From the NCBI RefSeq assembly GCF_902626525.1, contig NZ_CACOFR010000010.1, positions 1 to 64,000 on the forward strand: a stretch of 64,000 bases of DNA. Direction: 5' to 3'. This stretch comes from an uncultured Prochlorococcus sp. GTDB lineage: Bacteria; Cyanobacteriota; Cyanobacteriia; PCC-6307; Cyanobiaceae. Shown in pieces: positions 59,757-64,000 of the stretch. Below the pieces are notes generated by a model. It was given only the letters and a program-made list of their open reading frames with translations, ran no database searches and had not been told where the DNA came from. The position numbers and the translations under genes are program-made. How positions within the stretch are numbered: the stretch's first letter is position 1; every line of letters begins with the position of its first letter.

Positions 59757-60299
59757 ATGTCGGGATATGTTTACCTAATTAGAGTAGGAGATCTTTATAG
59801 AATTGGGAAAACGGATAATCTAGAAAAGAAAATTAAGAAATTAAAACCAGATGAATTGTTAACATCAATTATGACAAAGGAGCCAGCAACTCTTGAAGCA
59901 AGGTTACTAAGAAAATATAAGTCGCAAAGAATTCCTGAAACTGGTTATTTAAATCTTTCTAAAAGACAAATTAAAGAATGCAAAAAGCAATTTGAATTAA
60001 AGGGAAGCTTACCTCACACTCTAGATGCAGAAGTTTCTATTACACTTTTCGCCTCTTTTCTATTATTTACATCAAGCTTCTTGATTTTAAATTATCTAAA
60101 TTTTGGATTTTTAAAAACAATATCATATTCTTTTGGATTAGCATCTCTCCCAATGGTTATTTTATTTATAACAGGAAGTTTTGGGGGATATTTTTCTGAA
60201 GATTTATCTCTATTCTCATTATTAACTAATCGTATAAAAGGGCTATTCATAGCAATTGCAATGCTCTCAATGGCTTACTTAATTTTTAATTTAGGTTAA
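59757..60299 (+). CDS. GIY-YIG-like (T5orf172-type) domain fused to membrane helices
   Basis: A 180-residue protein. The N-terminal 75 residues look like a GIY-YIG/T5orf172 nuclease-fold domain: GYVYLIRVGDLYRIGKTDNL supplies the paired Y-V-Y and Y-R-I-G strands, and LEARLLRKYKSQRIPETGYL supplies a conserved helix with arginine and a later glutamate. Residues about 92-178 are three to four membrane helices. The combination would place the domain on a membrane, probably facing the cytoplasm. Whether it cleaves DNA is doubtful and untested. Its stop overlaps the SDR gene through TTAA. Confidence 0.78.
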   Translation: MSGYVYLIRVGDLYRIGKTDNLEKKIKKLKPDELLTSIMTKEPATLEARLLRKYKSQRIPETGYLNLSKRQIKECKKQFELKGSLPHTLDAEVSITLFASFLLFTSSFLILNYLNFGFLKTISYSFGLASLPMVILFITGSFGGYFSEDLSLFSLLTNRIKGLFIAIAMLSMAYLIFNLG

Positions 60300-61003
60300 A
60301 TTTCATAATTACAATTTAAGGAGATTTCAAATGGAACTGATTGCATCGGTAGCTTTAAAATAGTCGAGCATATCTCAGCAATATCCTCTGGTTGCGTCAT
60401 TTTTGATTTGTCTAAGGAGGAGATGTTTTTGGACATTTCTGTATTAACCCAACTTGGACAAATTGCAGAAATCCTTATGTTTTTTCCCCAACCTTTATTT
60501 CTCATTGTTTGGCATAATCCCATCAAAGCAAATTTTGAAGAAGAATAAGCTGCTAAATCCCCTTTAGATCTTTTCCCACTCATTGAAACCAAAACAATTA
60601 TTCTTCCTCTGCCTGAAGCACATAAATGCTCCCAAGAAAGTCTACATAAATTCCAAATTGCTAAAAAATTTATATTAAGTGTATTCAAAATTTCTTCTTC
60701 ATCACCATCTTTGTATAAGAAAGGTACTTTCGATAACACTCCAGAACAATTAATTATTGAATCAAATCCACCAAATTCATTTACGGTATTTTTTATCCAA
60801 TTGTCGGCTGATTTTTTTTTTAATGCATCATATTTGTTAATTAAAATCCTCCTTTCTGGCCATTTATCTGGATCAATAATGCTTCCTTTTAAAGATTCTA
60901 AATCTCTTATCCCAACACTAATTCTGTTACCTTCTTTTAATTCTTTATATGCAATATTTAGTCCAATGCCTCTATTTGCGCCACTTATTAGTATGGTTCT
61001 CAT
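60296..61003 (-). CDS. Short-chain dehydrogenase/reductase
   Basis: A 235-residue classical SDR. The cofactor loop is ISGANRGIGLNIAYKELKEG (TG replaced by SG), the NAG-type motif appears as INCSGVLS, and the catalytic residues are visible as SMSG followed by YSSSKFALMGL. Substrate unknown. It lies 7 bases downstream of the lycopene cyclase gene on the same strand and is probably co-transcribed, which would permit a pigment- or quinone-related role without showing it. Confidence 0.9.
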   Translation of the reverse strand: MRTILISGANRGIGLNIAYKELKEGNRISVGIRDLESLKGSIIDPDKWPERRILINKYDALKKKSADNWIKNTVNEFGGFDSIINCSGVLSKVPFLYKDGDEEEILNTLNINFLAIWNLCRLSWEHLCASGRGRIIVLVSMSGKRSKGDLAAYSSSKFALMGLCQTMRNKGWGKNIRISAICPSWVNTEMSKNISSLDKSKMTQPEDIAEICSTILKLPMQSVPFEISLNCNYEI

Positions 61004-61010
61004 TCTGAAA

Positions 61011-62294
61011 CTATATATTTGGAAATATTATCCTAAGTAACATTTTAAATTCTCTACCATGCATGAGCATTAAACCTTTCTTTACGCTCCATGGAGCTTT
61101 TATAAACATTATGCACATTGCATATACAATTTCTCTTAAGGATAAAGTATCAGTAAGAAAACCATACCATTGATTTTTGGGTAGTTGGAAAAAACTACCA
61201 AAAAATTCTCTCAATAGTTTTTCATCAAACCTCATCAGTTTCTCCAATCCAAATTGGTAAAGTGATTTCTTTCTGATTAATTCTTTTGACCATAAAGTTT
61301 CCCATCCTCTCCTCGCAATATGATAGGTACTAAGATTTTTGTTTCTAATTGCTTCTGATACTGCTTTTGCGACAAGTGGTGCTCTTCTTAAGACATTACC
61401 AATTAGGTAGCCAGATGCAGGATGCACCATTGAAGCAGCTCCTCCATAACCAAGTATTTGTTGTTTGAAATCTGGTATTGGCATATTCATTGGAAGAAAC
61501 AAACCAAGTTCTTCATGTTGCATACTAGTGATAGATATATTTCGATAAGTTAGCCTTTTCTCAAGTCTCTCTTTCAAATTTTCCATTGTTAAGGGATTTA
61601 CCAAACCAAGTGATGTTTCTTCAAGAAAATATTTGCCATTTCCCATATCCATTGCATATAGAAAAGTGGGAGGTTCTTTTTTTTGTTCTTCATTAAGATG
61701 GTCATTTCTATAGTCCATTAATACAAACTGCCCTTTTTTTAGAGGAGGTTTACTAAAATTCCCCACAATCCCATAACAAGTTTGCACTGCCAGAGGACCA
61801 CATGACTTTAATTTAAGAAAAACAGGATCATACCCTGTTGCATCTACTACTAATCTTGCAGAGTAAGATTTGCCATTATTAGTTGTTACTGTACTTTTAT
61901 ATTTTTCAAAATGTATTTTATCTGCATAGCCTTGATGCCATTTAATAAAAGACTTATTACATTCATTAAGCCAAAAATTATGAAGTTTCTTCTTATCAAA
62001 TAGTCCGTAATCTAATGAATGCTCTGTAGCTTTATTCTCATCATGCTGTTCCTCTAAGGCGCCATGCCCAAAAAAACTCACAGTATTCTTCCATCTATAT
62101 TCCAGTAAATCTTGAAGACCTAGTTCATCAACTTCTTCTCCCCAAATACCATAAGTGTTTGGCCAAGGTTCATCTGGACCATTTGGAGACAGGACTTCAA
62201 CATCTAATTTTTCCTTGCCTAAAGCAGACGCAATTGCCATGCCTGCAGGTCCTGCACCCAAAACAAGAACATCTGGCAGGCATTCTTTTGTCAT
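61011..62294 (-). CDS. crtL-e: Lycopene cyclase (CrtL family, probably epsilon type)
   Basis: A 427-residue FAD-dependent cyclase. The dinucleotide fold is VLGAGPAGMAIASALG, followed by the plant-type NTYGIWGEEVDELGL, ARLVVDATGYDPVF and the C-terminal GYGGAASMVHPASGYLIGN. These place it in the plant/cyanobacterial CrtL family rather than CrtY or CruA. Prochlorococcus carries two CrtL paralogs; the position a few genes downstream of pcb agrees with my recollection of the epsilon-type paralog, but the b/e distinction cannot be proven by eye. It makes the alpha- and/or beta-carotene rings of the antenna pigments. Confidence 0.85.
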   Translation of the reverse strand: MTKECLPDVLVLGAGPAGMAIASALGKEKLDVEVLSPNGPDEPWPNTYGIWGEEVDELGLQDLLEYRWKNTVSFFGHGALEEQHDENKATEHSLDYGLFDKKKLHNFWLNECNKSFIKWHQGYADKIHFEKYKSTVTTNNGKSYSARLVVDATGYDPVFLKLKSCGPLAVQTCYGIVGNFSKPPLKKGQFVLMDYRNDHLNEEQKKEPPTFLYAMDMGNGKYFLEETSLGLVNPLTMENLKERLEKRLTYRNISITSMQHEELGLFLPMNMPIPDFKQQILGYGGAASMVHPASGYLIGNVLRRAPLVAKAVSEAIRNKNLSTYHIARRGWETLWSKELIRKKSLYQFGLEKLMRFDEKLLREFFGSFFQLPKNQWYGFLTDTLSLREIVYAMCIMFIKAPWSVKKGLMLMHGREFKMLLRIIFPNI

Positions 62295-62519: not shown

Positions 62520-63521
62520 ATGATTGAGGACAAAAAAATTTTAATCACTGGGGGTAATTCAGGTATAGGATTTTTTGCCATTATTAATTTACTCAAGACC
62601 AAAAATAATTTATACATAGTAATAAAATCTGAACAAAGAAAGAATGAATTCTTAAGAAAAATTGAGAAACATTATGATAAAAATTATTTAAATAAATATA
62701 TCCATATTATTGATAATTGCGATCTTTCCGATTTAGAGAATATTAATAAAATTAAAGAATATATTTTAAAAAAAAAGATTTTTTTAGACGTAATTATTTT
62801 AAATGCAGGATTGCAATATACAGGTTCTTTTTATCCCAAAGTTTCAAAACAAGGAGTAGAACTAACATTTGCAGTTAATCATCTTGCCCATTTTTACTTG
62901 GTAAATATGTTGATAGATTTTGTTAGAGATAAAGAAGAATCTAGAATTATCATTACATCATCTGATGTTCACGACCCCAAAAGTCCAGGGGGAAATATAG
63001 GAAAGAAAGCAGGGCTTGATAATTTTTCTGATTTTAGAAAAAAGGTTACTGGACAATTCTTAAATTTTAATGCGGACGAATCTTATAAAAATAGTAAGTT
63101 ATGTAATATTTTGTTTGCTAAAGAACTTTCAAAAAAATTAAAAATATCTTCAAGTAAGATTACTGTAATTACTTGGGCACCTGGCCTTGTAATACCAGAT
63201 GATGATTTAGGTTTTTTTAGATATAGTAAAAGTTTTAATCTTTTTGGATATATGATTTTTTCTAATGTTGCAAAAAATATTTTAGGAATTTCTGAAAGTG
63301 TAGAAAATGCTGGCGAAATACTTTCTAAGATTGTATTTGATTCAACTTTTAATAATATTGATTACATACATTTAAGTAATAGACTTACATCTTTTAAAAA
63401 ACATAAATTATCTGAAAGTAAGGTTAGTGATGAAGCCAATAATTCTGAATTGGCCTCTAAACTTTGGATTTTAAGTGAAGATATTTGCAGATCATTTGGC
63501 TTTGTTTCTTTCAATATTTAA
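62520..63521 (+). CDS. Protochlorophyllide oxidoreductase-like SDR
   Basis: A 333-residue SDR that resembles light-dependent protochlorophyllide reductase (LPOR) more than generic SDRs. Cofactor loop ITGGNSGIGFFAI is followed by LNAGLQYTG and NHLAHFYLVNML. The LPOR-like segment SSDVHDPKSPGGNIGKK precedes a catalytic Tyr189/Lys193 in SYKNSKLCNILFAKEL, the latter close to the LPOR sequence. The C-terminal part is diverged from LPOR. It may be a second pigment reductase or a relative acting on another substrate. The upstream neighbour on the opposite strand is lycopene cyclase. Confidence 0.85.
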   Translation: MIEDKKILITGGNSGIGFFAIINLLKTKNNLYIVIKSEQRKNEFLRKIEKHYDKNYLNKYIHIIDNCDLSDLENINKIKEYILKKKIFLDVIILNAGLQYTGSFYPKVSKQGVELTFAVNHLAHFYLVNMLIDFVRDKEESRIIITSSDVHDPKSPGGNIGKKAGLDNFSDFRKKVTGQFLNFNADESYKNSKLCNILFAKELSKKLKISSSKITVITWAPGLVIPDDDLGFFRYSKSFNLFGYMIFSNVAKNILGISESVENAGEILSKIVFDSTFNNIDYIHLSNRLTSFKKHKLSESKVSDEANNSELASKLWILSEDICRSFGFVSFNI

Positions 63522-64000
63522 GGTTTGTGTTGGGAATGCAAAATCTATATTATTAGCTTCGAATTCCTCCATGATTTTTAAATTTATAGATTGTTGAGCA
63601 TCCATTGCAGAGAGATAATTATTCGTAGGTATGTAATATACAAGTTCGAAATTAAGACTAAAGTCTCCAAAATCTGTGAAATGACACCTATCAAAAGATG
63701 CATCTTTTGTCTCTTCAACTATTTTTTCAATTATTTTTGGGATCAATTTCATAAGTTTTGGAGAAGTTTCATAAACAACTCCTAATTTATGTACTAACCT
63801 TCTTTTTTTCATTTGTGCGTAATTTGAAATGATTCCATTTGTTAATGCGCTGTTGCTCATAACTATTATTTCGCCATTGATACTTCTTATCCTCGAGGAT
63901 CTTACTCCTACTCTCTCAACCATTCCCAAGATCCCCTCGGATTTTATAAACTCACCTTTTTGAAAAGGCTTATCAAGTAGTATTGTTATGTATTCAAAAA
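63492..64000 (-). CDS. MscS-family mechanosensitive channel, C-terminal part (runs off right edge)
   Basis: The track gives 145 residues from an internal ATG, but the frame stays open to the window edge and adds EYITILLDKPFQKGEFIKSE ahead of it. That is the MscS beta domain following the pore helix, and GILGMVERVGVRSSRIRSIN is its hallmark. The C-terminal alpha/beta vestibule follows. The membrane helices lie outside the window. Such channels release solutes on hypo-osmotic shock. The 3' end overlaps the convergent POR-like gene by 30 bases. Confidence 0.88.
   Translation of the reverse strand, partial: FEYITILLDKPFQKGEFIKSEGILGMVERVGVRSSRIRSINGEIIVMSNSALTNGIISNYAQMKKRRLVHKLGVVYETSPKLMKLIPKIIEKIVEETKDASFDRCHFTDFGDFSLNFELVYYIPTNNYLSAMDAQQSINLKIMEEFEANNIDFAFPTQTLNIERNKAK

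Follow-up and report, generated by a model that had tools for sequence, protein, structure and literature searches.

The open reading frame at 62520–63521 (+) of the Prochlorococcus sp. stretch analysed here (64,000 nucleotides; the window) encodes a short-chain dehydrogenase/reductase (SDR) of 333 amino acids (P0001, ATG start) that resembles light-dependent protochlorophyllide oxidoreductase (LPOR), and we use LPL as a name coined here for the family of this protein, which is conserved and widespread among picocyanobacteria of the ocean. LPL is a relative of LPOR and not LPOR itself; we propose that it is probably a light-independent, NADP(H)-dependent SDR with a bulky substrate other than protochlorophyllide. 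Because the residues with which LPOR holds its pigment are swapped, LPL probably works in the dark as an ordinary NADPH dehydrogenase on a different molecule. A literature search, with most subscription journals outside its coverage, found no account of the family.

An LPOR-related gene and the genome's own por

A sequence-only reading of the window had placed an LPOR-like reductase beside a lycopene cyclase, and both features were recovered. The LPL open reading frame (ORF) lies exactly at its predicted position, and divergent to it is a CrtL-type lycopene beta-cyclase gene (61011–62294, −), which scored 568 bits on NF045687, over the cut-off. A classical SDR, called SDR2 here, is encoded at 60296–61003 (−; PF00106, 119 bits). 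On the 3' side of LPL, the ORF list holds a convergent ORF (63492–63998, −), labelled by us as putative MscS-like, which extends past the window end and overlaps the end of the LPL ORF by ~30 bp. Judging from full-length orthologues and a median dN/dS of ~0.17, the ORF at 62520–63521 is a real gene, and this dN/dS indicates that LPL is under selection. A promoter scan found no more sites than in shuffled sequences.

With Pfam, the window protein matched only the generic short-chain dehydrogenase family (PF00106, over cut-off). Its best NCBIfam match was the LPOR model TIGR01289, at 110.2 bits against a cut-off of 331.35, and its best match in the PDB was the cyanobacterial LPOR 6l1h (E 5e-24, residues 7–322), the likeness spanning the whole length of the protein. 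A profile search again returned cyanobacterial LPORs as the best solved relatives of LPL (E 2e-55).

The source genome (1.53 Mb, 44 contigs) also holds the standard por that had been expected elsewhere, at G000:C4:28586–29563 (L001 1495–2499, −), beside a chlL-like gene. Since this separate LPOR scores 317.4 bits on TIGR01289 and clusters with other LPORs in the tree, the window gene is not por, and we rejected the idea that LPL is the only por copy. The genome's own LPOR, which has a GTG start as read here, falls slightly under the TIGR01289 cut-off (317 versus 331 bits), and the score in another genome of the genus is 331.6. The branch leading to the LPORs of this genus is long, and automatic annotation may leave these proteins unnamed.

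Phylogeny, fold and active site

In a first tree, with retinol-dehydrogenase (RDH)-like SDRs as outgroup, LPL and LPOR formed separate clades (support 99/97 and 100/100, respectively). Each was monophyletic in all three trees, with support of 99/97 to 100/99 for LPL and 100/100 for LPOR. Nesting LPL with picocyanobacterial LPOR was rejected (AU test, p = 0.0086), and with it an origin of LPL as a recent duplicate of that enzyme. RDH-like SDRs (NF004846/PRK06197 type; the genome's own copy is at G000:C3, L003) have the Rossmann core and catalytic tetrad in common with LPL but lack the loop described below, with 24 residues between beta5 and the Tyr versus 40–44 in LPL, and their separate clade disfavours LPL as one of them. 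The window protein scored 86 bits on the PRK06197-type model, under its cut-off of 268, and grouping LPL with RDH-like rows gave an AU p of 0.034 in a tree with one mis-framed Nocardia row. LPL therefore lies outside LPOR and outside the RDH-like clade, the two placements that the sequence-only reading had named as contrary to it. Its view of a diverged LPOR relative distinct from the standard enzyme is upheld by the separate clade and by the score of 110 versus 331 bits.

When further bacterial SDRs were sampled, a third group appeared, made up of proteins from the non-photosynthetic Lichenicola (WP_171837129), Rhizobium and Paenibacillus. Their loop is about as long, and such annotation as they have reads only SDR family oxidoreductase. 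These proteins are 28–31% identical to LPL over full-length matches and have in common with it G92, Q94 (in most), S145, D149, an HDP motif and a loop of 34–43 residues, but their loop and Tyr/Lys helix are less like those of LPL than are those of LPOR. The non-photosynthetic bacterial SDRs L208, L209, L214, L215 and L218 combine an LPOR-like loop (34–43 residues) with the HDP motif. With the heterotroph sequences added, LPL and LPOR were still monophyletic. AU p values of 0.55–0.68 for the sister orders among LPL, LPOR and the heterotroph SDRs mean that the tree does not fix their order; the loop sequence and the YKDSKLCN helix favour a grouping of LPL with LPOR. Given the long branches and skewed composition, the deep branching order is to be read lightly. 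The Gln94, Ser145 and HDP features common to LPL and the heterotroph group may be ancestral.

An AlphaFold model of LPL, built from 86 LPL sequences, had a pLDDT of 92.5 and a pTM of 0.93. The ten solved chains nearest to it were all LPORs (TM 0.70–0.82 by query length), with ordinary SDRs behind. LPOR (PDB 6l1h, 6rnv and 7jk9) counts among the closest known systems, and LPL also has its NADP-binding motif. LPL shows the features of the SDR superfamily: a Rossmann fold in the model, the TGxxxGIG motif (TGGNSGIG in the window protein) and Ser-Tyr-Lys with Asn, the tetrad being N95/N120-S148-Y189-K193 in window protein numbering. Ahead of the catalytic Tyr, LPOR has an insertion loop that was reported to be absent from related SDRs (PMC6761149). 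This loop measures 45–47 residues in LPOR and 40–44 in LPL (approximately residues 149–188 of the window protein), against mostly 24–25 in RDH-like SDRs. Its presence in LPL and in the heterotroph SDRs means that it is not unique to LPOR.

We compared residues across 147 LPL and 41 LPOR rows in T. elongatus numbering; the LPL rows are not independent, many being near-copies from one genus, and the switches were the same in 28 diverse LPL rows. Alignment is partly uncertain at sites inside the loop. Common to both sets are Asn90, Asn115, Phe187, Tyr193, Lys194, Lys197, Cys199 and Asn200, with the catalytic Tyr193/Lys197 pair kept in 147/147 LPL rows. Of the two LPOR landmarks that had been named in the window protein, SYKNSKLCN does match YKDSKLCN of LPOR; SSDVHDPKSPGG, by contrast, is not an LPOR landmark. 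It is typical of LPL and occurs in part in some heterotroph SDRs, the corresponding stretch of LPOR being GTVTANxxELGG, or THNP in some. SSDVHDP is a hallmark of LPL and not of LPOR.

At seven sites, LPOR and LPL have no residue in common (A92G, Y94Q, T145S, T147V, L222W, C226L and L232F, from LPOR to LPL). Six are fixed within each set; the other, position 222, is nearly so, with Leu in 39 of 41 LPOR rows and Phe in two. Cys226 is a conserved LPOR residue with a functional role; it is Cys in 41/41 LPOR rows and Leu in 147/147 LPL rows. Ordinary dark SDRs likewise carry Ser at position 145. A published model of LPOR places Tyr94, Thr145, Thr147 and Asn149 at the pigment's C17 propionate; variants at Thr145, Thr147 and Asn149 lose activity or photochemistry (PMC4970445). 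The first three are Gln, Ser and Val in all 147 LPL rows; position 149 is still Asn in 67 of them. Position 38, where the Arg/Lys of LPOR was placed near the 2'-phosphate of NADPH (PMC4970445), retains Arg/Lys in LPL. Divergence of the C-terminal part from LPOR, noted from the window alone, is confirmed: Y223, C226, F240, Q248, W283 and G284 are replaced, with F240G, Q248A, W283S and G284N in most LPL rows, and F233 is mostly retained.

Distribution and gene neighbourhood

Full-length LPL orthologues occur in most genomes of the window's genus at 68–85% identity (generally 79–85%), with a diverged subgroup near 70%. Within the family, LPL was found in 28 of 34 genera and, among the 121 genomes with a completeness of 90% or more, in 91. 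It was absent from all eight listed genomes of genus g6 (G105, G138, G159, G173, G183, G193, G202 and G210). A class-wide sample outside the family yielded no LPL, only three weak matches that all group with LPOR by protein comparison, and the viral contigs and phages searched gave no match. The best 80 LPL loci in named genomes came from Prochlorococcus, Synechococcus, Cyanobium, an Aphanothece, other cyanobacterial bins and three off-label contigs. The last are MAG contigs labelled Bifidobacterium breve, Pelagibacteraceae and Gammaproteobacteria (L117, L174 and L179) with picocyanobacterial LPL genes, and are probably mis-binned.

For neighbours, we relied on families checked with Pfam or NCBIfam. 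The order SDR2–CrtL–LPL–63492 ORF is kept in the Prochlorococcus lineage; several marine Synechococcus have only SDR2 near LPL, and neighbours of freshwater LPL loci varied. An HpnE/phytoene-desaturase-like FAD enzyme is encoded directly upstream of LPL in Synechococcus L106, L107 and L108 (in L106 with a GTGA stop/start overlap running into LPL) and close to LPL in L109, L114 and L127. We set aside a functional link to this enzyme because it is absent from the window's genus. A link to SDR2 was likewise not adopted, co-occurrence being loose: SDR2 is kept in seven of the eight listed g6 genomes, all eight of which are without LPL. Participation in chlorophyll breakdown by pheophorbide a oxygenase was rejected, homologues of that oxygenase being absent in Prochlorococcus genomes. 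Among SDR2, pheophorbide a oxygenase and the neighbourhoods checked, no gene near or co-occurring with LPL identifies the substrate.

Candidate substrates and the origin of LPOR

As a dark SDR, LPL would probably hold NADPH in its Rossmann pocket, as SDRs usually do, and use the Asn-Ser-Tyr-Lys tetrad for hydride transfer, in either direction, between the cofactor and a carbonyl/alcohol or an activated double bond, with chemistry of the ordinary NADP(H) SDR type that would need no light. The loop and the C-terminal part may form a large predicted pocket, LPOR-shaped but rebuilt so that protochlorophyllide would no longer be fitted or photo-activated. Our tentative guess is a bulky hydrophobic substrate, perhaps isoprenoid- or pigment-related; a pigment is less certain in view of the related SDRs with a similar loop from Rhizobium, Lichenicola and Paenibacillus.

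The sequence-only reading had suggested reduction of a different tetrapyrrole or a carotenoid-type ketone. This is doubtful, given a cyclase neighbourhood limited to the Prochlorococcus lineage, replaced pigment contacts and loop-bearing relatives in non-phototrophs. A carotenoid- or apocarotenoid-type alcohol, aldehyde or ketone would suit the adjoining lycopene cyclase in the Prochlorococcus lineage, the FAD enzyme directly ahead of LPL in three Synechococcus loci and near it in three more, and the membership of retinol dehydrogenases in the SDR fold. Such a role is nevertheless rather unlikely, since we found no lycopene cyclase near LPL in Synechococcus/Cyanobium loci, and the FAD enzyme has no close homologue in the window's genus.

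We also consider it unlikely that LPL is a tetrapyrrole enzyme that still takes up a chlorophyll-type molecule for reduction, whether dark or light-driven. LPOR is the closest fold and loop among solved structures, YKDSKLCN and loop residues are in common, F233 is mostly retained, and among the genomes searched LPL is limited to chlorophyll-making cells. Weak tetrapyrrole binding is possible because the T145-to-Ser change is mild and N149 is often kept. Against a tetrapyrrole enzyme, the LPOR residues for pigment contact and photochemistry are replaced in all of LPL, and relatives with the loop occur in non-phototrophs. Prochlorococcus pigments are divinyl-Chl a/b; LPL occurs both there and in Synechococcus/Cyanobium, and so has no fixed link to the chemistry of divinyl pigments or Chl b. 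That the window gene is the genome's por in diverged form, as might be read from LPOR being its best solved relative, is extremely improbable given another LPOR beside chlL, a distinct LPL clade and the loss of Cys226 and other LPOR-fixed residues.

On our preferred reading as a dark SDR, LPL is a conserved enzyme with a dark-type active site that abundant phototrophs of the ocean have retained in their streamlined genomes. LPOR belongs to the very small set of enzymes for which every turnover requires light; its origin from dark dehydrogenases is an open question, for which LPL gives a natural comparison. A more speculative and doubtful proposal is that LPL is a dark enzyme acting on a pigment (tetrapyrrole or carotenoid) in an LPOR-shaped pocket and that, with the heterotroph loop SDRs, it preserves the pre-photochemical state behind LPOR. 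If so, the few residue changes that lead from a dark SDR to a photoenzyme would be made visible.
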